In this document: piece after piece, positions 12,685 through 36,984 of the stretch
Layout: each line of letters starts with the position of its first letter
How positions within the stretch are numbered: the first letter of the stretch is position 1
Virus record (IMG/VR): IMGVR_UViG_3300044712_001366
Location: 1 to 38,167 of that record
Origin: a virus
Direction: 5' to 3' (one strand)
DNA length: 38,167 nt
The notes under the pieces: generated by a model
What the model saw: only the letters and a program-made list of their open reading frames with translations
What the model was told of the DNA's origin: nothing
The model's database searches: none
Program-made: the position numbers and the translations under genes

Positions 12685-15600
12685 ATGCAAAACCGTTCCC
12701 CCGTACTACAACGACCAAACAAGGGCAAATCCTCAGCAGAGTACTTGCAAGAACTTGAAGCATTAATGAAGCGAAACAAAGGCGGGATGACGTTAGTCGG
12801 TGAGGATGTGGGATTTAATACGCCGTACAGTTTAGCCAATGCTGTACCAAATACTCCACCTGCTCTACAAGGGGGATTATCAAACTATCAGCAACCCAAT
12901 CCAACCAAACAGAATAGACCCATTCCACAAGAATTACCACCCTATGAACCACCCCCAGAAGATACGGGAGATGAAGGAGAGGGTGATGAGTATGGAGATG
13001 AATTGCCAGAAAACCCAACAATTGAGCAGTTTTTAGACGTTATTAACAATTCCGTTAATCCTACACAACAGCCTAGTACACAACAAATGGAATCCGTGTA
13101 CCAGCAAACAGGAAAAGCCTATCCCTTAGCCTCTATGCAGGATGGTTCCGTTCTGTATTCCGATGGTTCGTATCGCTCAGCACAAGAAGTGCAACGAAAC
13201 CCCCTAGCAATAGCTTCACTGGAGGGAAATAGAGTGTTGTACGACGATGGGATTGTCCGAAACGGAGACTACATTGACGAGGAAGCGACACAAGCAGTAG
13301 CAGAATATGGTGGTGTTGCTGGTCTTTCTCAAATGATTTTTGGTCAGCAGCAAGCCGTTACTCAGGAGTTTGGAGTAAAAGGTATCCATGCTCGAGGGCA
13401 TCGAGGTGTAGACTTTCGAACGCGAGACCTTACAAACAGGGAAATACGCCCATCATTAAACGGTGAAGTCGTGCAAGTTCTTTATGATGACGGAACACGA
13501 TTCGGGACATATTCGGGACACCAGGGCTACGGAAACTCTGTTCTCATTCGTCTGTCCACAGGAGAGTATGTTCGTCTTTCACACCTTTCTTCAGTCGCAG
13601 TTCAGCCAGGACAAGCCATACGACCAGGAGACTTAATCGGAACACCAGGAAGCACAGGAAACTCAACAGCTGAGCATATGGACGTAGAGGTTCTGGATCA
13701 AAACGGCAGAGTAATGGATCCAAATAAATTGAATTATCAGATTCGACAAAATAGAGAGCAGTACGTTTCCCAGGATGAACGACCACAGCCAGGACAAATT
13801 TCAGACCAGTACAGCCCCTCTAACCAACAGCTTTTTTCTTCACAACCACAACAGCGACAGCAGATGCAACAGCCAGCTTCACAACAAATGCAACAGCAAA
13901 GACAAGAAACGATGTTGCCTCGCCCAATCGTAGAGAAAACAGCGCAAGCATTTCAAAATATCCAAGAAATTCCAGAAGCAATGCGCATGGTTGCAGAACC
14001 CATGAGTCCAGAAAGACAAGCGGGTGGAGAGTTTATTAATCAAACAGGTCAAGTTCTAGGACTTGGAACAGATAAAGGGTTTCTTGGTACTGGAGAAGAT
14101 TTTGCAGGAAATACACAAGCGGCAATACAAGAACGGGAACGTTCTATTGCATCTGGAACGTTAGGACAAACGAATCCACTTCGATATTTAGCAGGAAATG
14201 TAACAGAAAAAGTCGGAGATAGGCTTGGTTTTATTGAGGGAAAATCATCAGAAGCAATAGCAGGAGCGCCAACAAGAAGAACAAATCTTGCGGAAGCAGC
14301 AACTCCTGAATTTCAGCAAATGCCCCGTCCATTTCAAGATCAGTATGAACAAACCATTAAAGGTGATGTTCAGCGAGCTACTCCACAGATAAAGAATCTC
14401 TCAGCAAAAGCAAATCAGGTAACCAATCCTTTTAACCTTCTTACTTCTGGACTTCAAAAAGCAGGATCGTTTGTTGCCAATCAAGCGCAACAGAGCATGA
14501 ACACGAGAAAACAAGCCGCGCAGAATGTTTCGAATGTCTTTGCCAAAAGAGTGCAAAACCCCGTCTCAGCTCAACCTACGCAGGGTATGCCAAACCCAGA
14601 AAGCGCACTTGCAAAGATCATGAACCAGAAGGATCAGCAAACGCCTGATGCGTCCGCGCAACCTGTCATCAACCAGCCAGGACAAGGACTTTCCGACCTC
14701 AAGGGACAGTATCAGGGAGTGTCTGAGCAGGACAGTAATATTTTTAAACAAAAAGCACTTGATACCTTCGGGAAAAAGGCAATCGGCGAGGATTCATCAA
14801 ACTCTGAAGCCTCAAACATGCTTCCTACCTCGTTATTAGATCTCAATAAGGTGGGAGCGGAAAACGACAACAGAGATGCCTTCTTTAAAGCTGGAGGCGC
14901 ACAAGCCTACAAAGACTACCTAAACCCTGGAGTTACAGAAAAATACAAAGGCGCCCTTGATTTAAACCTGTTTAACGCAAAGACCTTTGATGATCCCAAT
15001 GCGATTGCAAACATCTTTGGTTCGACCTTTTTAGGCAAAGCAGCTACTGATATCTATAGAGGACGAGAAGCCGCAAAGTACCCGAAAATGGGCTATGGAG
15101 AGTACGGGTATGACGGTGATTACCGAAACGCGGTAGATTCCTACAACCGAGAGATAGATAAGTACATTTCTTCGATTCCTTCGGTGTTTACCTCAGGATT
15201 TAAGTTTGAAGCTCCTGCAAAGTCTTCTGTGATGCGTCCAACAGGCCCCGTATCACAAAAGGCAAGCGTTCAAGCACCGCCAAAAAACTTTATCCCTCTT
15301 GTTGCTCCAGTGCTCTCGTCGCTTCCTGTTCCAGGAAAGCAGATGATTCAGCCTCTTGCAAAAGCAGCAAGTATTGCACAAAACATTTTTGCAGCACAAA
15401 AACCCACAGCAGCGGTGAAGGCGCCAAGCATTTCACGACCATCAAGCGGCCCTGCACAGCCTTCTAAGCCATCCGTCAACGTGTTTTCCAATGCAGTCAA
15501 ATCGGTGATTTCCGCTCCCGCAAAGGTTGCAGCAAATCCTGTATCTATTGCTTCCAAGATCGTCAACCTTCCGAAGATCAGCACGCCGACCATCAGCAAA

Positions 15601-18971: not shown

Positions 18972-19208
18972 TTATTGAGTTTTATTTAACTTCTCCATAC
19001 ACTGCTTTATATCATCAACTTTAATGTATCCAATATCCTTATTGTTCCACGTTTTAATGTCGAGCATACAGTTGAAAGAAGCTTTTTGCAGGTTATAGTC
19101 TGTCACCAATGCATTGTAATGCTCAGTAAGCTTTTCATACTGGTAAAAGTAATAGCCTAGAAACCCAAGTGTGGTGATAAATGTTAAAAGAAATAAAAGT
19201 CTTTTCAT
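18972..19208 (-). CDS. Small membrane-anchored protein (moron pair, second gene)
   Basis: A 78-residue protein with a basic start (MKR) and a single hydrophobic segment at about residues 4-24 (LLFLLTFITTLGFLGYYFY). A polar, probably external tail with two Cys follows (SFNCM..., KQCMEK), which could form a disulfide. Upstream is AAAGGAA 5 nt before the ATG, 1 bp after the stop of its partner at 19210. Opposite strand and AT-rich composition, unlike the late genes around it, suggest separate acquisition. Function unknown; superinfection exclusion or lysogenic conversion is a guess. Confidence 0.65.
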   Translation of the reverse strand: MKRLLFLLTFITTLGFLGYYFYQYEKLTEHYNALVTDYNLQKASFNCMLDIKTWNNKDIGYIKVDDIKQCMEKLNKTQ

Positions 19209-19209
19209 A

Positions 19210-19596
19210 TTATTCCTTTACTTGTACAAATCTAAACGTTTTTTTCAATTCCTCGTTTTCTTTTAGAAGTCTTGTTACTTCTTCTTCTTTTTTCTTTGTT
19301 TCATCTGCTATTTTTCCATATTCTTCCATTAATGACATTAATTGTGCATCTGTAATAGTATTTTTTAATAAACCAACGTTCATTTGATTGCATATTTTAT
19401 GTGTTTGATACATTCCCTGTGAATAATCATATAGTGAGGAACAATATGCAGTATCGCTTTTTGACGCTGAATTCATTTCCTCTATAGTCTTTTTATAGTC
19501 TGGAATCTGATAGAGTTTAATTGTTGCATAATCCCACGCAGCATAGAGGAAAAGACACAGAATAATTATGCGAATGATGAGATGGATTTTTTTCAT
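19210..19596 (-). CDS. Membrane-anchored coiled-coil protein (moron pair, first gene)
   Basis: A 128-residue protein: N-terminal transmembrane segment at about 4-21 (IHLIIRIIILCLFLYAAW), a middle with two Cys (AYCSSLY, HKICNQ), and a charged coiled coil at about 88-122 (EEYGKIADETKKKEEE). An in-frame ATG at 19605 exists. I prefer 19596, with AGGA 8 nt upstream on the predicted transcript. The Cys pair is then on the outside face. Together with 18972-19208 it forms a two-gene leftward unit with its own host-type promoter inside the late region, the hallmark of a moron. Product role unknown. Confidence 0.65.
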   Translation of the reverse strand: MKKIHLIIRIIILCLFLYAAWDYATIKLYQIPDYKKTIEEMNSASKSDTAYCSSLYDYSQGMYQTHKICNQMNVGLLKNTITDAQLMSLMEEYGKIADETKKKEEEVTRLLKENEELKKTFRFVQVKE

Positions 19597-19616
19597 ATCT
19601 AACATCCTATAATACT

Positions 19617-22028: not shown

Positions 22029-25021
22029 TGGCAGCACTGCACATTGACCCACTTGTACCTGGTAATGTTGTCATGCACGAGCATGAGACCAGTGATATTG
22101 TGGGGTATGTTGCACCGATTACTGACCACACCCTCCTCTCTAACATCGGCACAAATACCCACGCGCAGATCGACACTGCACTTGCAGGTTTGGCGACAAC
22201 GTATCTCAAGTTAGATGGAAGCAACGACCCGATCACGGGACAACTGGACGTGAATAATATCCTTACTTCTACCGATCTTCAAGGCTATGGTGGTGTTCCT
22301 GTTACACTTTCGAAAGGCTTAAAAAGCCCATACACTAATCAGGTGGTTGTGGATGCTGGAGGAAAAGGTGATTACACCACGATTGCTTCAGCTATCGCGG
22401 CGTTTCCTTCTGGGGGAGTCTTCATCAAACTGAGTGCCGGAACCTATACAGAATCAAGTATTACGATCCCGTCCAACACGATCATTGAAGGCGCAGGGAT
22501 TGGGGTAACAATCTGGCAAAACACCGCCACAAACACGCGCATGATGACAAGTTCTGCTGCAAGTAATGTGTCGCTACGGAACATGACAATCCTCTTTAAC
22601 CGATCAGATAATTCCGCAGTCAACTGGTCTGCACTTGTCTTCTCTTCAACTACTTTCATTCAAAACTGCGATGTGGACTCTGGAGGGTATCGCACCCATT
22701 ACAACGCCAATACCGGCGGAGTCTACCTTAACTGTCTGATTAACCGCGGAACGTCCTACCTTGACGGATTAACGGGCTGGGAATCAGGCGCAAAGTTTAT
22801 CGGCTGTACGATTGCTGGAACCATGGTTACACCAGCTGGTGGTGCAACGGGCAATCATCAGGTGTACGGAGGCTCCATAGCAGGAGCGATAGAACAGCGC
22901 GATGCAACGCAGTTATTCGGGGTGCGGATGCCGTCTACAGGAACGATTACCCTGGGGACTGGTTCGGGAACTCCAGAGACTTCACTACGAAACATTAATA
23001 ATTCAACGATTGAAAATCTTGAAATGCGAACCGGCACTGGTGGTGTAATAACAAATTCTTTTGTAAAAACCTTGAACCTCAATGACACCTGGAGCGGGAA
23101 CTCTGCACGGTTACGGTTGTGGAATACCTATGTCTCAGCCTTAAACGGAAAGTCTCAAGCTGGAGAAATCTGGCCATCTGGGGCATTTATCGCTTCAGTT
23201 TCCAATATGTCTTCAGGACAACTGGTTGCCCAATCAAACTACGCTCCACAACTCTTCAGACCGTATCACACGGGAGCCGTTCCAGTAACGATTCGGGCCT
23301 TAGCAAACCAGACGGGAAATCTTTTAGAGTTTCAAAACTCCAGTAACACAGTTCAGTTATCTATTGCCAAAGATGCAGAAATTACCCAAAATATCGCCAA
23401 AACCAGTGCTACTGCATCTCCCATAAACGCTACTCTAACCTTCACCCAAAACGCCAGCAACCAGAATCAATATCCTTATCAATTCACGGAAACGCACAAT
23501 ATCCCTGATTTTGCTTCGATTGCAAATAGATCGCACTTAGTGAGTTACAACCTCACGGTAGATTCAGATAACGCCTCAACAGCATTTACCTCTGTCAAAG
23601 CCTTCACCGCAACGCTCAACTATGCCAACAAGGGCGGAGTTACCGATCTTTTAGGCTATGACGCAACACTCAATGTCAACGATACAGGAAGCATTACCAA
23701 TCTCTACGGTATGAAGTTCGTGTTTGCGAATGCTGGAGGAAGAACCCCTACGAATACGTATGGCGTCTATGTGAATTCTTTAGCAATACCTGGCACAAAC
23801 TGGTACTCATTCTATTCAGAGGGAGGAACGGGGTACTTTCGGTGCGGAAGCGCGTCAACAAAAGGACTCGTTGTTCAAGCAGAAGCGGCTCAGTCAGCAA
23901 GTCTTCAAGAGTGGATTAATAGTAGTGGGACTATGTTGGCAAGAATTACAAAAGATGGGTACATTCAGTCTTCGTATGATGGAAATTATGCAGGATATAG
24001 ACTTGAGATCAATGAATCAGCAACAAGTAAGATATGGACTAATGATGGGCAGTTCTTTATTCAAAGAGCTTCGGGTGCTGGGTTTGTTGTTCGGTCAACA
24101 AGTGGGGGAAACAAAGATTGGTATGTTACCACATCAGATGTAGTTCAAGATCAAATAGCCTCGTGGATTAAATTTTCGTCTTTAACAGAAACAAATGACA
24201 TAGGTTTAATGTTGCGAGGCAAATATGCAGGAACAGTTGGGGAATCCATCGACTCAAGACCACTATATTTCCCGACTCATTACTTTGATACAACTTATCG
24301 CCTTGAAGGGGCGATGCTAAAAGCATATCGAGATTCCGCAACACCAGGCGATTACTACTTAGGGATAAGCACCGGAATTACTGCAACACAAACAGTGAAA
24401 CATAAATTTTTCAGTAACGGTGATGTACTTCTTGGTACTTCAGACTCAATAAAAACCTTCTGGGGGGCAGGAAAAGATATGAGCCTCTACTATGACGGAA
24501 CAAATGCAATCGTTAACCCGAAAGAGGTGGGCACTGGATATCTCAATATTAAAGGGACGGTATTAGTAGATGATTATCTGTACGAAGACGGAACATTTGC
24601 CGAAATCTACGTGGCTGATGGCTCAACCGCGCAATCCATCCCCACAGGGACAACCTACACAAAATGTACGCTATTTACCACAAACGGCGCTTCAAGTAAC
24701 TGCACAGCCGACGCGACAAACGACAAGATCACCATCACGAAGGCTGGAAAGTATCGAGTGTCTGGGACGTTTTCGATGAAGTCAGGAACGAATAATGTCG
24801 AGTTCAAAGGCACTGTATTTTATGACGGAACGGAACAAAGCAATATCCACTGGGAGCGCAAGATTGGTGTAGCTGGAGATGTTGGCAACGCCTCATTTTC
24901 TGGAATTTTAACGGCAGCAGCGAACAAAGATATTGATCTTCGCATCAGACACGACAATGCAGGAAGCATTGATTTTACACTTACCTACGCAAATATTAGT
25001 ATTTGTTATTTAGGAGAATAA
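22028..25021 (+). CDS. Tailspike with beta-helix and C1q-like tip
   Basis: A 997-residue protein. The N-terminal 80 residues are a virion-attachment part with DHTLLSNIGTNTHAQID, a widespread phage-tail motif. From about 110 to 340 there is a right-handed parallel beta-helix of pectate-lyase type, beginning VVDAGGKGDYTTIASAIAAF and continuing through Asn/Ser/Thr-rich coils. Such spikes often bind or cut surface polysaccharide; catalytic residues cannot be named. A trimer-type segment follows (TNLYGMKF...TYGVYVNS, about 557-582). The last 140 residues look like a C1q/TNF jelly roll (KYRVSGTFSMKSGTNNVEF). GAGGGGGAAATA precedes the ATG. Confidence 0.8.
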   Translation: MAALHIDPLVPGNVVMHEHETSDIVGYVAPITDHTLLSNIGTNTHAQIDTALAGLATTYLKLDGSNDPITGQLDVNNILTSTDLQGYGGVPVTLSKGLKSPYTNQVVVDAGGKGDYTTIASAIAAFPSGGVFIKLSAGTYTESSITIPSNTIIEGAGIGVTIWQNTATNTRMMTSSAASNVSLRNMTILFNRSDNSAVNWSALVFSSTTFIQNCDVDSGGYRTHYNANTGGVYLNCLINRGTSYLDGLTGWESGAKFIGCTIAGTMVTPAGGATGNHQVYGGSIAGAIEQRDATQLFGVRMPSTGTITLGTGSGTPETSLRNINNSTIENLEMRTGTGGVITNSFVKTLNLNDTWSGNSARLRLWNTYVSALNGKSQAGEIWPSGAFIASVSNMSSGQLVAQSNYAPQLFRPYHTGAVPVTIRALANQTGNLLEFQNSSNTVQLSIAKDAEITQNIAKTSATASPINATLTFTQNASNQNQYPYQFTETHNIPDFASIANRSHLVSYNLTVDSDNASTAFTSVKAFTATLNYANKGGVTDLLGYDATLNVNDTGSITNLYGMKFVFANAGGRTPTNTYGVYVNSLAIPGTNWYSFYSEGGTGYFRCGSASTKGLVVQAEAAQSASLQEWINSSGTMLARITKDGYIQSSYDGNYAGYRLEINESATSKIWTNDGQFFIQRASGAGFVVRSTSGGNKDWYVTTSDVVQDQIASWIKFSSLTETNDIGLMLRGKYAGTVGESIDSRPLYFPTHYFDTTYRLEGAMLKAYRDSATPGDYYLGISTGITATQTVKHKFFSNGDVLLGTSDSIKTFWGAGKDMSLYYDGTNAIVNPKEVGTGYLNIKGTVLVDDYLYEDGTFAEIYVADGSTAQSIPTGTTYTKCTLFTTNGASSNCTADATNDKITITKAGKYRVSGTFSMKSGTNNVEFKGTVFYDGTEQSNIHWERKIGVAGDVGNASFSGILTAAANKDIDLRIRHDNAGSIDFTLTYANISICYLGE

Positions 25022-25031
25022 AGGAGGAATC

Positions 25032-25355
25032 ATGGCACTACTAGCCAATAAAACAGCAGAATTTGGGGTACAGGCTACCTACTGGAGTTCAGATCAAGTG
25101 AATATTCACTGGGATGCAGGAGTCAATAATAACGCGCATGTAGAACTTATGGGTTATCGCTCTGAACAGCATAAAAAAATCGACAACGAACGCTATGTTG
25201 ATAAGTTTATGTACGAATTTACTCATGACAATTTCCCCTTTACCAAGGGAGGAAACAACGAAGCGGAATTTTACATGTGGCTCAAGGCAGAAGCACAAAA
25301 ACCTGAGAATACAGAAGAAAAGTACACGCTCTTTACCAATGCACCAGACGCATAA
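25032..25355 (+). CDS. Unknown protein after the tailspike
   Basis: A 107-residue soluble protein, mixed in character, with an aromatic N-terminal half (YWSSDQVNIHWDAGVNNNAHVE stretch at about 17-38) and a charged helical C-terminal half. AAGGAGG precedes the ATG, one of the strongest sites in the late region. It may be a spike chaperone or an extra tip protein. No family recognised. Confidence 0.65.
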   Translation: MALLANKTAEFGVQATYWSSDQVNIHWDAGVNNNAHVELMGYRSEQHKKIDNERYVDKFMYEFTHDNFPFTKGGNNEAEFYMWLKAEAQKPENTEEKYTLFTNAPDA

Positions 25356-25366
25356 GAAAGGAATAT

Positions 25367-25525
25367 ATGACCCCAGTACAAGCCCTTGAATTACTTGACC
25401 AAGCCGCAAGTTTAGCACCGCTTAATCGTCAGCAACACTTTGCCATTCAGCAGGCGTTAGAAGTCGTAAAAAAAGCACTTGAGGAGAAGAAGGATGGAAA
25501 GGCAGACAAAGGTGCATCTCGCTGA
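25367..25525 (+). CDS. 52-residue helical protein
   Basis: A short gene with AAAGGAA at a good distance from its ATG. The 52 residues form one or two helices (QALELLDQAASLAPLN..., then QALEVVKKALEEKK) with a Lys-rich end. It overlaps the start of the MazG-like gene by 32 bp; that gene's ribosome site lies inside it, so the two are coupled. Similar short Ala/Leu helical proteins are frequent in phages, role unknown. Confidence 0.6.
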   Translation: MTPVQALELLDQAASLAPLNRQQHFAIQQALEVVKKALEEKKDGKADKGASR

Positions 25526-25994
25526 AGCAATCGAAGCCCGTTACCGGATCGTTGCTGAACACGTAGCAAAGCAACACGAAAATCGGGAAACATGGGGCAA
25601 AGAGGACACGCTTTCACATATCGAAAAGCTTATTTGGCTTGAGTATGATGAACACCTTGAGGCGATTGCGCATGATTTACCTGCCGTTGCCGTTGCTTCA
25701 GAGGTGGGGGATGTGCTGTACCTTATTACGTTGTATGAGAGCAAAGCGCCACTTTCTCCTGCACTGACAGCCCTAAAACAAGAGATGTACCAGTTTTGCG
25801 AAGAAGTCGGACTAGACCCTTTGGAGTGTGTGGAAATGAAAGTCTTACGCAATGCGATTAAGTACCCCGATGCTCTCTGTAACAACGGCTACGCCTATAA
25901 AGAAGCGATGCAGATCAGTAAACTGTTTTATGTCGCGTTAGCAGGCTCACAGGACTTGAAGTTTTACGAGGCGTATCTAGAAGTGTTTGGGTAG
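25494..25994 (+). CDS. MazG-like nucleotide pyrophosphohydrolase
   Basis: A 166-residue all-helical protein with the MazG/dUTPase-superfamily metal pattern: E50-x2-E53 (LEYDEHLE) and E70-x2-D73 (SEVGDVLYLITLY). A typical VLRNAIKYPD segment lies later. Such enzymes cleave NTPs or alarmones to the monophosphate plus pyrophosphate; phage versions may protect nucleotide pools or damp host stress signals. The ATG at 25494 (GAGGAG upstream) is preferred over an in-frame TTG at 25479. It is the last gene of the late plus-strand run, an unusual place for a nucleotide-metabolism enzyme. Confidence 0.7.
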   Translation: MERQTKVHLAEAIEARYRIVAEHVAKQHENRETWGKEDTLSHIEKLIWLEYDEHLEAIAHDLPAVAVASEVGDVLYLITLYESKAPLSPALTALKQEMYQFCEEVGLDPLECVEMKVLRNAIKYPDALCNNGYAYKEAMQISKLFYVALAGSQDLKFYEAYLEVFG

Positions 25995-26030
25995 AGCAGA
26001 ATGTTACAATGGTACAATATGACAATAAAC

Positions 26031-26049
26031 AGCTACATACTGGGTTGGA
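26031..26049. repeat. Inverted repeat flanking the small leftward gene, left arm
   Basis: AGCTACATACTGGGTTGGA is the inverted partner of 26245-26263, matching at 17 of 19 positions. The two arms enclose 195 bp that contain the 38-codon gene at 26072-26188. It could be a closing stem in the minus-strand RNA, a pair of recombinase or protein sites, or the ends of an invertible segment. Confidence 0.8.
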
Positions 26050-26071
26050 GGGGAAATAGACACGTTACGCA

Positions 26072-26188
26072 TTACTTTTTACGAATGCGCTCTTTTTCGT
26101 GAGTCGCTGGACTTTTTACTGCTTTTTGTGGGGTAGTAAATTGTCCCGTAACTGAACTGCGAAACACTGTGATGTATTTCTTTGCCAT
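26072..26188 (-). CDS. Conserved-type 38-residue phage protein
   Basis: A 38-residue basic protein of the common phage type that reads 'AKKY...RSS.TGQF...' and ends in a Pro-Ala-Thr-His-Glu-Lys-Glu-Arg tail. Its function is unknown, though such proteins are very widespread. The start is fixed by AAAGGAGGTG 5-6 nt before the ATG, a near-perfect ribosome site. It lies between the arms of a 19-bp inverted repeat and downstream of a promoter and long hairpin (26274-26402), so it may belong to a lysogeny-expressed unit. I reject an extended start upstream. Confidence 0.75.
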   Translation of the reverse strand: MAKKYITVFRSSVTGQFTTPQKAVKSPATHEKERIRKK

Positions 26189-26244
26189 GTTTTCACCTCC
26201 TTTCGTTGTCATGTCTCCGTGTGTATGGAGCAAGTGAGGACGGT

Positions 26245-26263
26245 TCCAACCCAGCGTGTAGCT
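26245..26263. repeat. Inverted repeat flanking the small leftward gene, right arm
   Basis: Inverted partner of 26031-26049 (17 of 19 positions). It lies between the long hairpin and the ribosome site of the 38-codon gene, so any minus-strand transcript that contains the gene contains both arms. Confidence 0.8.
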
Positions 26264-26273
26264 CTTCAAGCCA

Positions 26274-26367
26274 CAAAAAAACCTCTCTGTCTGAACCTGG
26301 AACGCGCGATATACTGCGAGTTTTGCTTGAAACTTTCGTTCCAAGCCCAGACAAAAAGGTCTTTCTA
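26274..26367 (-). ncRNA. 31-bp hairpin RNA starting at its own promoter
   Basis: Read on the minus strand, 26367-26337 pairs with 26304-26274 over all 31 positions: 23 Watson-Crick and 8 G-U pairs, no mismatch. All 8 differences between the arms are transitions that become G-U only in minus-strand RNA; in plus-strand RNA they would be A-C mismatches. The 32-nt loop holds a further AGTTT/AAACT hairpin. The 5' arm begins at the predicted transcription start. The 3' arm ends in seven U, so a free RNA of about 94 nt ending there is plausible. It may instead be the 5' leader of the 38-codon gene. Confidence 0.7.
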
Positions 26368-26372
26368 GGTAC

Positions 26373-26402
26373 AGTATATCACAATGTTTCAAGCATGTTC
26401 AA
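26373..26402 (-). promoter_or_regulatory. Extended -10 promoter reading into the long hairpin
   Basis: On the minus strand: TTGAAC (26402-26397), 18 bp, then TGATATACT containing an extended -10 (TGn plus TATACT at 26378-26373). Start is expected near 26366, the base of the hairpin. The -10 lies in CAGTATATC (26372-26380), whose inverted copy GATATACTG occurs at 26308-26316 inside the hairpin loop. Confidence 0.65.
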
Positions 26403-26445
26403 AATACCAAATAAATACCGAACTTGTCAAGTGGAATGGAAACCT

Positions 26446-26475
26446 GCCCCTTGTGCTTGCACTTGGGGCGTTTTT
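26446..26475 (+). terminator. Intrinsic terminator for the late operon
   Basis: A symmetric stem GCCCC-TT-GTGC / GCAC-TT-GGGGC (26446-26469) is followed by GTTTTT. It faces the end of the rightward late genes, so late transcripts would run antisense through the hairpin RNA and small gene before stopping here, just short of the convergent integrase gene. Confidence 0.75.
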
Positions 26476-26543
26476 ATGGTTCTCTTACAATGCTTCTCTA
26501 TACTTCCTTGTTAATGCCCGAACAGTTGCCCTTGCCGTTTCCT

Positions 26544-27467
26544 TCACTTGAGCTCGACGTGGAGTGAGTGATCGGTGAACGAAAATCCGATATGTGCATG
26601 CCCTACAATAGCCTCTTTTGCGGTTTCAATGAGTTCTATAAGAATATCCGCGTCTGATCGCAAATGCTCTTGTGCGGGGTCTTTTTTGCTTGCTTCTTTC
26701 ATGAGATATTCATTTCGCTCTAAATACTGCATCGTCGATACCACGCTTTCATGCCCCATGAGTTCTTTTAGTTGTTCAATCCCCACTTTTGGCGCCATCC
26801 TTCTTCCGAACGAGTGGCGAATACTATACACAGAGACGTGTTTGAGAAGCCCCATAGAATGAATTCTTTTTGTAAAATCGTTCTCAATAGACTTTCTTGA
26901 CAGTGGAGTATCGGAAGTCGGACAGGGAAAGAGGTGTCGAGTGTTTAGCGTTTTACAGTAGGAGACAAGATCGGGATAGACAATATCCTCAATAATCACT
27001 GGGCGTGTTTCTTTGGTCTTGTCTGAAACATACAACACATGATTATCAAAATCGATTTGCTCAAGTGTTAATGTTCGTACTGCTCCAGGACGCGCACCGG
27101 AGAAACAGTACAGTTTCCAGTACATGCCGTATTTTGATGGCGGTGGGTCTTTAGCAATAAAGGTATGAATTTCCTCAATGGAGAGGTTGGCTTTCTTTTT
27201 TGGGTGTTCTTTGAAGTGCTTCCATAATACAAGGTCAATCTTTGCAAACTGGGCATAGAGGGAAAAGGTCTGTCTCACCTTGTTTAACAGTGCTTCACTA
27301 CATCCCTTTTCCTGTAAATCGTACCGGTATTGTGTCAGTGTTTCAGAGGTAATCTCTTTGTATGTTTCAACAAGTTTTTCTACATGAGAAACGTGCCATT
27401 TGGCGCATTGCTTGGACACAAGGCGGTCATTGAGCAGATGCCGATAAAATCCCTGTATATCAACCAT
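26544..27467 (-). CDS. int: Tyrosine recombinase (phage integrase)
   Basis: A 307-residue protein with an N-terminal core-binding helical domain (about 1-90) and a C-terminal catalytic domain. Catalytic set: R126 (SGARPGAV), K150/K152 in the beta-hairpin, R217 (YSIRHSFGRR), H239 (LMGHES) and the nucleophile Y248 (TMQYLE). The first His of the usual HxxR box is Tyr214, a change tolerated in some members. The enzyme should integrate and excise the phage at an attachment site. The C-terminal 50 residues are extra. No clear Shine-Dalgarno precedes the ATG, and its promoter would overlap the rightward early promoter region. Confidence 0.88.
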   Translation of the reverse strand: MVDIQGFYRHLLNDRLVSKQCAKWHVSHVEKLVETYKEITSETLTQYRYDLQEKGCSEALLNKVRQTFSLYAQFAKIDLVLWKHFKEHPKKKANLSIEEIHTFIAKDPPPSKYGMYWKLYCFSGARPGAVRTLTLEQIDFDNHVLYVSDKTKETRPVIIEDIVYPDLVSYCKTLNTRHLFPCPTSDTPLSRKSIENDFTKRIHSMGLLKHVSVYSIRHSFGRRMAPKVGIEQLKELMGHESVVSTMQYLERNEYLMKEASKKDPAQEHLRSDADILIELIETAKEAIVGHAHIGFSFTDHSLHVELK

Positions 27468-27513
27468 AAACCAGGGCAGACTCTAGCACAGAGATTCTCT
27501 AAGGAACAGCCCT

Positions 27514-27542
27514 ATTGACACTGCATAATACTTCGGCTATAC
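27514..27542 (+). promoter_or_regulatory. Early rightward promoter
   Basis: TTGACA (27514-27519), 17-bp spacer, TATACT (27537-27542): consensus -35, five of six in the -10, ideal spacing. It lies in the gap between the leftward integrase and the rightward early operon and should be read by host RNA polymerase on entry. No repressor gene or obvious paired operator was found beside it. Confidence 0.85.
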
Positions 27543-27561
27543 TTGTGTTTGAGATGTGTTA

Positions 27562-27669
27562 ATGGAACTGGATTTGAATGAGATTGTCGATATGTATATC
27601 TGGCTACTTCCCATCCTTGGGAAGGATGCATACTGCCAGTGTACTAATCCCGCACTATCACATAAGTAA
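27562..27669 (+). CDS. Possible 35-codon leader peptide
   Basis: A short frame beginning about 13 nt after the predicted early start point, encoding 35 residues with a hydrophobic middle (MYIWLLPIL) and two nearby Cys. The ribosome site is weak (GAG). Its ATG lies in one arm of a long-range pairing and its body spans the 27600-27639 stem-loop, so translation could remodel the leader. It may also be chance. Confidence 0.3.
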   Translation: MELDLNEIVDMYIWLLPILGKDAYCQCTNPALSHK

Positions 27670-27682
27670 ATCACAATTCCAT
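27562..27682 (+). promoter_or_regulatory. Structured leader of the early operon
   Basis: A nested hairpin: outer CTGGC/GCCAG (27600-27604 with 27635-27639), inner CATCCTT-GGG-AAGGATG (27612-27628). A second overlapping inverted repeat, CTTCCC/GGGAAG, lies at 27608-27624. Bases 27562-27570 can pair with 27674-27682 (one mismatch), closing the whole. It could act as attenuator, RNA stabiliser or DNA operator. Confidence 0.5.
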
Positions 27683-27727
27683 ACACTTCTCTGTGTGTAA
27701 CCAATGAGTATACCACGAGGGGTCAAC

Positions 27728-27964
27728 ATGGAAGACAAACGAAAAAATCCGATCAACGAACTATCACGTTCTATTGCTCGATATTACGATCGCAAATACG
27801 CAAAAGGCATTTATCAACTATTTCTCAAGAACGATAAAAACTGGGAAAAACTCGGAAAAGATTTGGATATTACTGGAACCCGAGCAAAAGCTATTTTTAG
27901 CGACATTTTCAAAGAATTAGAAAACAAAACAGGAGCCGAAGCCCTTGTAGAGGAGGCAAGATGA
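27728..27964 (+). CDS. Small putative DNA-binding protein, first early gene
   Basis: A 78-residue basic helical protein. Residues about 35-60 (FLKNDKNWEKLGKDLDITGTRAKAIF) look like a helix-turn-helix, with DITGTRA in the recognition-helix region. I chose the ATG at 27728 (GAGGGG upstream) over the in-frame ATG at 27704. As the first full gene behind the early promoter it is the best local candidate for a regulator, perhaps of the early-to-late switch. It is too short and basic to be a CI-like repressor with its own oligomerisation domain. Confidence 0.6.
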   Translation: MEDKRKNPINELSRSIARYYDRKYAKGIYQLFLKNDKNWEKLGKDLDITGTRAKAIFSDIFKELENKTGAEALVEEAR

Positions 27965-28176
27965 ATTCTACTCATCTCACCAACAGCGCAGATTGTAGCG
28001 CTTGGGAACCCGTAACACAAGCGGTGTACAACCGCATGGATAACTACCAGAAAGCCCGAATGTGGCACTTCTGGCTTGATATGGGCTTAGTGTCAGAGAC
28101 ACAAGCACGAGAGAACGTTACCAACCTCATGACTGCAGAGACAATAATCTCTGTCTTCTTAGGAGGTCGACGATGA
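27961..28176 (+). CDS. Unknown early protein, 71 residues
   Basis: Not recognised. It has an amphipathic helical middle (NRMDNYQKARMWHFWLDMGL) and a hydrophobic C-terminal part (AETIISVFLGGRR) without a clear membrane span. Coupled to the upstream gene by ATGA, with GAGGAGG before the start, and coupled by ATGA to the next gene. Confidence 0.6.
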   Translation: MNSTHLTNSADCSAWEPVTQAVYNRMDNYQKARMWHFWLDMGLVSETQARENVTNLMTAETIISVFLGGRR

Positions 28177-30504: not shown

Positions 30505-30846
30505 ATGGCAAAAACACTAACAATTAGCGATGAGACGTACGAGCTCATTAAAGAACAACTTGGAAAAAGTACTGCATTTGAGGTCAACGAGCTTGATGAG
30601 TTCATTGGAAAAAAAGTGTTTATTCGCACCGTTACCTATCACTTAGTAGGTAGAGTTGTAAAGCGCATCGGGCAACTTTTTGAGCTACAAGAGGCTTCGT
30701 GGGTTGCAGATTCTGGGAGATTCATGCAAGCAATCAAGGAAGGAACTCTTGATGAAGTTGAGCCCGTTGGTCAGTGCTGGGTAAACATTGAAGCACTTGT
30801 TGATATGTACCCATGGAAGCACAACCTTCCTAAGGAGCAATCATGA
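30505..30846 (+). CDS. Conserved-type phage protein of unknown function
   Basis: A 113-residue protein. The opening (MAKTLTISDETYELIKEQL) resembles a small DNA-binding helix start. The middle (FIGKKVFIRTVTYHLVGRVVK) and the end (CWVNIEALVDMYPWKHNLP) match a pattern I recall from many phage early proteins of unknown role. AAAGGAG precedes the ATG. It is the first gene after the structured RNA, so that RNA may set its level. Confidence 0.7.
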   Translation: MAKTLTISDETYELIKEQLGKSTAFEVNELDEFIGKKVFIRTVTYHLVGRVVKRIGQLFELQEASWVADSGRFMQAIKEGTLDEVEPVGQCWVNIEALVDMYPWKHNLPKEQS

Positions 30847-31025
30847 TTGCGGCAAACATTAATACCCTGTACTGGGTCAATGGGTCGAGGTCGAGGTCGA
30901 GGTCGTGGTCGAGGTCGTGGTCGAGGTCGTGGTCGAGGTCGTGGTCGAGGTCGAGGTCGAGGTCGTGGTCGTGGTCGAGGTCGAGGTCGTGGTCGAGGTC
31001 GAGGTCGTGGTCGTGGTCGTATTAA
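30843..31025 (+). CDS. Overlapping Ser-Arg/Ser-Trp repeat frame
   Basis: This frame has the better start signals: ATGA coupling to the previous gene and AAGGAG upstream. After 14 ordinary residues it runs through the hexanucleotide repeat as Ser-(Arg or Trp) and then stops. The base that varies between repeats changes Arg to Trp here, so there is no sign of selection on this reading. It may deliver ribosomes to the Gly-Arg frame by a +1 shift near AATGGG (30879-30884). Confidence 0.35.
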   Translation: MIAANINTLYWVNGSRSRSRSWSRSWSRSWSRSWSRSRSRSWSWSRSRSWSRSRSWSWSY

Positions 31026-36915: not shown

Positions 36916-36984
36916 AGCGTCCGGTAGGATACGAACCTACTTTAAGTCTTTTCCGGAGACAAGTTTTCTATAAACTACGGACGC
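36916..36984 (-). tRNA. tRNA-like gene with shrunken D-arm (anticodon possibly GGA)
   Basis: On the minus strand the 7-bp acceptor (GCGTCCG/CGGACGC) and 5-bp T-stem with a canonical loop (GTAGG-TTCGTAT-CCTAC) are perfect. The D-arm is GTTT/AAAC with only a 5-nt loop and no GG pair. The anticodon arm has 4 bp plus a T-T mismatch and loop CCGGAAA. That resembles a Ser-GGA loop except that the invariant U33 is C, and there is no long variable arm as Ser tRNAs need. The body is 68 nt. CCA is not encoded. Either a degenerate tRNA or a specialised tRNA mimic. Confidence 0.6.

Follow-up and report, generated by a model that had tools for sequence, protein, structure and literature searches.

The window analyzed here is an entire IMG/VR virus record, IMGVR_UViG_3300044712_001366, of 38,167 bases, with terminase, portal, capsid, tail, and tyrosine-integrase genes. 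On the integrase strand, 177 to 270 nt downstream of the integrase stop codon, lies a long hairpin, and no other convincing terminator was found on that strand between the integrase gene and the late genes. The hairpin and the features around it are as follows.

26445-26475, plus: hairpin resembling a terminator of rightward (late) transcription and antisense to the leader unit (GCCCC..GGGGCGTTTTT, z -2.45)
26401-26430, minus: distal promoter candidate, TTGACA-N18-TATTTT, with an extended -10 (TG before the -10); a consensus match only, at 10 of 12 positions
26373-26402, minus: proximal promoter candidate, TTGAAC-N18-TATACT, with an extended -10 (TGATATACT); 9 of 12 consensus positions
26371-26383, minus: element A, predicted 5' strand of P1, overlapping the proximal -10; pairs with 26317-26305 over 13 contiguous positions
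26347-26368, minus: P2 of the predicted junction (minimum free energy fold of the partial transcript)
26337-26367, minus: 5' arm of the 31-bp terminator-like hairpin; 31 of 31 pairs kept in the relative L118
26325-26346, minus: P3 of the predicted junction, GCUUGGAAC-GAAA-GUUUCAAGC (from the same partial-transcript fold)
26305-26317, minus: element A', 3' half of the hairpin loop, complementary to the -10 region and predicted to serve as the 3' strand of P1
26274-26304, minus: 3' arm of the hairpin, with U7 inside it at 26281-26275
26072-26188, minus: basic 38-aa ORF, MAKKYITVFRSSVTGQFTTPQKAVKSPATHEKERIRKK, the gene after the leader, with a strong Shine-Dalgarno sequence, AAAGGAGGTG, just upstream of its ATG
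26028-26064, minus: 3'UTR of the 38-aa ORF; its predicted partners are the 5'UTR (26266-26245) and the SD/AUG region (26200-26186)

Elsewhere in the window, a tRNA-Ser (GGA) adjoins the terminase genes (36916-36984, minus), two small membrane-type minus-strand ORFs with a weak Rz-like match sit amid the plus-strand late genes at 18972-19605, and overlapping frames of a plus-strand tandem repeat at 30843-31025 encode alternately RS/RSW or RG repeats.

In minus-strand RNA, 26367-26337 pairs with 26304-26274 over 31 uninterrupted positions (23 Watson-Crick and 8 G-U) around a 32-nt loop, exactly the counts given in the initial annotation of this DNA; the second-longest uninterrupted stem in the window has 16 pairs. 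Folding favors the same strand: the minus strand reaches -54.6 kcal/mol (z -6.75, with none of 200 shuffles equally stable) and the plus strand is unremarkable (z -1.90). The proposed bias of the wobbles toward minus-strand RNA also stands: all eight face one strand, an outcome with a two-sided probability of about 0.008 given eight transitions. The U7 said to end the 3' arm is present, but it lies within the arm, and G26274 is the last base of the stem.

Searches of IMG/VR by way of the integrase, the ORF at 25479, or small-ORF patterns yielded no relatives, which were recovered instead through alignments of the capsid and tail proteins and have most structural genes in common with the window at 25 to 75% identity. 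When hairpins were ranked across 904 kb of the window and related phage DNA, the window's came first and one in L118 (IMGVR_UViG_3300025669_000226, a distant relative with capsid and tail genes common to the window) came second, far above the remainder. The L118 element occupies 1324-1440 (contig 13224-13340), and its hairpin has 28 contiguous pairs (23 Watson-Crick, 5 G-U), a 29-nt loop, U7, and a z of -6.35. Common to both hairpins are the U7 and an extended -10, which in L118 reads TGATATAAT and is of a kind that precedes 0.9% of random positions; all five L118 wobbles are G-U on the strand of the promoter and U-run. A covariance model built from the window alone aligned L118:1324-1440 end to end in a 90-kb search with filters off (42.4 bits, E 1.9e-8, a score that partly rewards any long hairpin), and a scan with default filters missed the element. 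Among 42 further records and 289 genomes, the latter without a known host link, L118 was the sole match to the RNA model.

In the alignment of these two sequences, which was fitted to the stem, all 31 pairs of the window are kept, 15 having changed on both sides, 4 on one side, and none being broken; none of 500 column shuffles and no slid register did equally well. Since L118 came out of a scan for strong hairpins, its pairing cannot count as independent evidence; what does stand apart from the stem search is the extended -10, the strand of the wobbles relative to the U-run and -10, and the similarity of flank and loop. The two sequences thus support selection on the element at the RNA level, on the minus strand, as the initial annotation had supposed. 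By that annotation's own criterion, homologues whose arm changes break the pairing would have refuted the idea, and the single homologue recovered keeps every pair. An origin, attP site, or recombinase inverted repeat acting as DNA would fit inverted repeats that adjoin an integrase in the window and a primase in L118, but DNA recombination sites require identity of the arms rather than G-T pairs, the double changes preserve RNA pairing, and every wobble in both phages is G-U on the promoter and U-run strand, so that we consider a DNA-level element highly implausible. Very unlikely, too, is that two unrelated long terminators came to look alike by chance or convergence. Sequence identity is just 60/115, the genomic contexts differ, and there are two examples, all of which would suit such an account; against it, similarity scored without structure (45.5) exceeds the maxima of 2,000 shuffles (42) and 3,000 genomic windows (44.5), and promoter motif, loop length, and loop complementarity are common to both.

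Three other hairpins preceded by promoter motifs were rejected as members of the family. Those at L090:4555-4608(-) and L144:5450-5504(-) are of ordinary size and weak or unmatched in the covariance model, and the one at L108:14256-14336(-) has a good -10 but lacks a U-run. The first belongs to a relative with a capsid identity of 67%: in an early operon's leader, a 24-bp terminator with U8 follows TGCTATAAT, and an upstream segment (AAGCCGC..ACCCAG) can compete for its 3' arm, which would make an attenuator-like leader. The L108 hairpin (22 bp, 37-nt loop) follows TGGTATAAT and precedes about 350 nt without a long ORF on the same strand.

The surroundings of the second copy bear on what the element serves. 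In L118 about 16 nt separate the end of the hairpin from the ATG for a 712-aa primase/helicase with VapE-like and NrS-1 polymerase-type domains; it is therefore a leader there, and the unit does not include the integrase. The relatives' records that were searched gave no match to the window's integrase, and a genome scan with this protein returned only an unrelated Xer-type protein, which was discarded. The link to the integrase drawn in the initial annotation is thus unsupported, and weaker with it is the case for an unusually long terminator or RNase III site that ends the leftward integrase transcript without switching, as lambda tI/sib might suggest. Lambda sib acts on int from a downstream site (PMC5300877, PMC2951348), and in the window both the strand and the distance past the int stop, with no other convincing terminator there, are as such a site would have them; no match to this int was found in the relatives, however, the L118 homologue lies upstream of the primase, and such a site would explain neither the structured loop and flank nor the presence of a -10 motif where the stem begins. 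The discovery of the L118 element demoted this idea, which we now regard as improbable. Just upstream of that element, a cloverleaf-like fold at L118:1250-1345 (plus, z -3.1, no Rfam match) may be part of the leader.

Both the loop and the 5' flank of the hairpin have partners of their own. In each phage the 3' half of the loop complements the -10 region (p ~7e-4 each), and its 5' half has a possible partner in the distal 5' arm. Partial transcripts that lack the 3' arm are predicted to fold as a junction in both (window, -31.4 kcal/mol, z -6.5; L118, -21.7 kcal/mol, z -4.5), each including two hairpins and a joining strand of 7 nt, AAAACUC in the window and CAAAGUC in L118. With the arms fixed and either loop or flank shuffled, equal stability arose in 0/1000 and 0/1000 cases for the window and in 4/1000 and 5/1000 for L118. 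Because the 5' arm is common to the junction and the long hairpin, the two folds are mutually exclusive; a pseudoknot that keeps P1 and the full stem together was dismissed, as its 3-nt linker cannot span a 31-bp helix. A covariance model of the junction finds L118 at 20 bits (E 0.011), and P1 keeps 9 of 12 modelled pairs there, with one double change; the P2 and P3 pairs of the two phages are not homologous column by column. As modelled, then, what has been conserved is the junction's architecture more than its register.

Which fold prevails in these calculations depends on where the RNA begins. The start predicted from the proximal promoter candidate is the base of the stem, where the initial annotation had placed the start of the transcript. 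That promoter motif is indeed present, but the distal candidate, 28 nt upstream on the same strand, is closer to consensus (10/12 versus 9/12), and L118 also has TTGACA-N17-TAGATT upstream. A distal promoter is equally or more plausible and alters the predicted fold, which leaves a small RNA that begins with the stem as one candidate product. In equilibrium folding at the end of the U-run with 8 to 14 nt of RNA hidden in the polymerase, a treatment of equilibria and not of kinetics, the window's probability of forming the terminator is 1.00 for a start at 26366 and 0.00 to 0.09 for one at 26394, so a start about 27 nt upstream of the stem base gives the junction and a start at the base gives the terminator. 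Shuffling the upstream sequence reproduced this effect in 0/300 cases for the window and 3/300 for L118. L118 shows an effect that points the same way but is marginal. It is clear for a start at 1315 when 10 or more nt are hidden and weaker for 1233 (probability of the terminator at 10 nt, 0.06 and 0.58, respectively); with 8 or 9 nt hidden, the terminator wins; and in a differently set-up survey the value was 0.81. Among 26 U-run hairpins surveyed, a few weak ones also lose to upstream sequence, and start-site sensitivity alone is therefore not diagnostic.

Beyond the hairpin, the RNA from 26273 to 26020 is itself highly structured (-83 kcal/mol, z -6.2). The 5'UTR and 3'UTR of the 38-aa ORF are predicted to pair over about 26 bp (26266-26245 with 26049-26028), and most SD/AUG bases are computed to be paired with the 3'UTR at a probability of about 0.9 or more. 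The encoded peptide is basic and hydrophilic by inspection and had no match in Pfam, NCBIfam, PHROGs, phages, plasmids, or 195 Verrucomicrobiota genomes.

A message predicted to be closed in this way is one of several points that lend weight to the main rival account, in which a promoter-born, terminated hairpin RNA of about 90 nt is the principal product and acts in trans, for example on read-through transcripts, with the downstream ORF as target mRNA, much as in Gifsy-1 IsrK and the P4 CI RNA. It is favored by the U7 and by the proximal extended -10 that each phage has where its stem begins, and the loop can pair not only with the -10 region but also with GCUUGAA after the terminator; the layout resembles that of IsrK (PMC4825925). 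Yet in L118 the primase start site directly follows the U-run with no visible sequestration, mutually exclusive folds in cis better account for the crossed order of the complementary segments, and the target is putative. We judge this account unlikely.

A leader that attenuates transcription through competing terminator and antiterminator folds is, on the modelling, what the element probably is, at somewhat better than even chances. In the window a 31-bp hairpin with U7 stands in the leader of an ORF with a Shine-Dalgarno sequence, the arrangement recurs in L118, and an antiterminator fold that excludes the hairpin is computed to be stable before the 3' arm emerges. The reading draws on two examples, the window and L118, and intrinsic terminators do not usually have loops as long as 32 nt.

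We infer four components: transcription, termination by the hairpin, antitermination by the junction, and a trigger that sets the balance. The hairpin and its U-tract would form an intrinsic terminator between promoter and gene. In the three-way junction, P1 would join the -10 region to the loop's 3' half, P2 would lie within the 5' arm, and P3 would pair the distal 5' arm with the loop's 5' half; once the junction was completed ahead of the emergence of the 3' arm, polymerase would read on into the downstream ORF, that of the 38-aa protein in the window and of the primase/helicase in L118. The simplest trigger would be the choice of start site. Without the P1 strand, RNAs begun at the stem base would always terminate, as a hairpin RNA of about 90 nt, and those from the upstream promoter would carry the strand and read through. 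That this more specific scheme is right in full, with the proximal -10 doubling as the antitermination strand, distal starts reading through, and the family reused before different genes, is a tentative proposal on the doubtful side; the trigger might also be a ligand or protein that acts on the junction.

If the attenuator reading is true, the element would be a previously undescribed phage regulatory RNA that has retained two competing folds through compensatory turnover of its stem, and it could convert promoter choice into a termination decision free of ligand and protein. The hairpin would be only half of the element, with the loop and 5' flank constrained like the stem.

Comparison with known systems would place the element among leaders that end transcription early. 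With attenuator leaders of the riboswitch type it would have in common an exclusive choice between terminator and alternative fold in a 5' leader, the alternative being completed first. It differs in having no recognized aptamer or Rfam match (riboswitch classes gave nothing significant, and weak microRNA-type, sRNA, snoRNA, and bglG cis-regulatory matches fell below gathering scores), in its stem of 28 to 31 bp and loop of 29 to 32 nt, and in an alternative stem that uses a -10-like sequence; start-site choice may be the trigger. Lambda sib/tI resembles the window element as a long stem that follows int on the same strand, but the L118 homologue is not near an integrase. Type I toxin-antitoxin mRNAs of the hok type recall the mRNA of the 38-aa ORF, with its 5'-3' pairing and an SD/AUG that is, by computation, hidden by the 3'UTR; the product here, however, is basic rather than hydrophobic, and no antisense antitoxin or antisense promoter was identified.

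By analogy, the systems nearest to the element in logic are P4 CI and Gifsy-1 IsrK, although Rfam searches of window 25000-28000 (E<=5) and L118 1100-1600 (E<=2) gave neither a C4 nor an isrK match. The immunity leader of P4 combines premature termination before replication genes with complementary segments in one leader (PMC4825925), and both traits of P4 CI (seqA-CI-seqC) and the C4 RNA of P1/P7 would be echoed by the element, which in L118 precedes the primase/helicase; here, however, the hairpin itself would be the terminator, and a processed trans-acting RNA is only putative. In Gifsy-1 IsrK/orf45, a promoter gives a short structured RNA that runs to a terminator and a read-through small-ORF mRNA whose ribosome-binding site can be sequestered (PMC4825925). 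The layout in the window is alike, with no visible sequence relation and with pairing in trans that is, for the element, putative.
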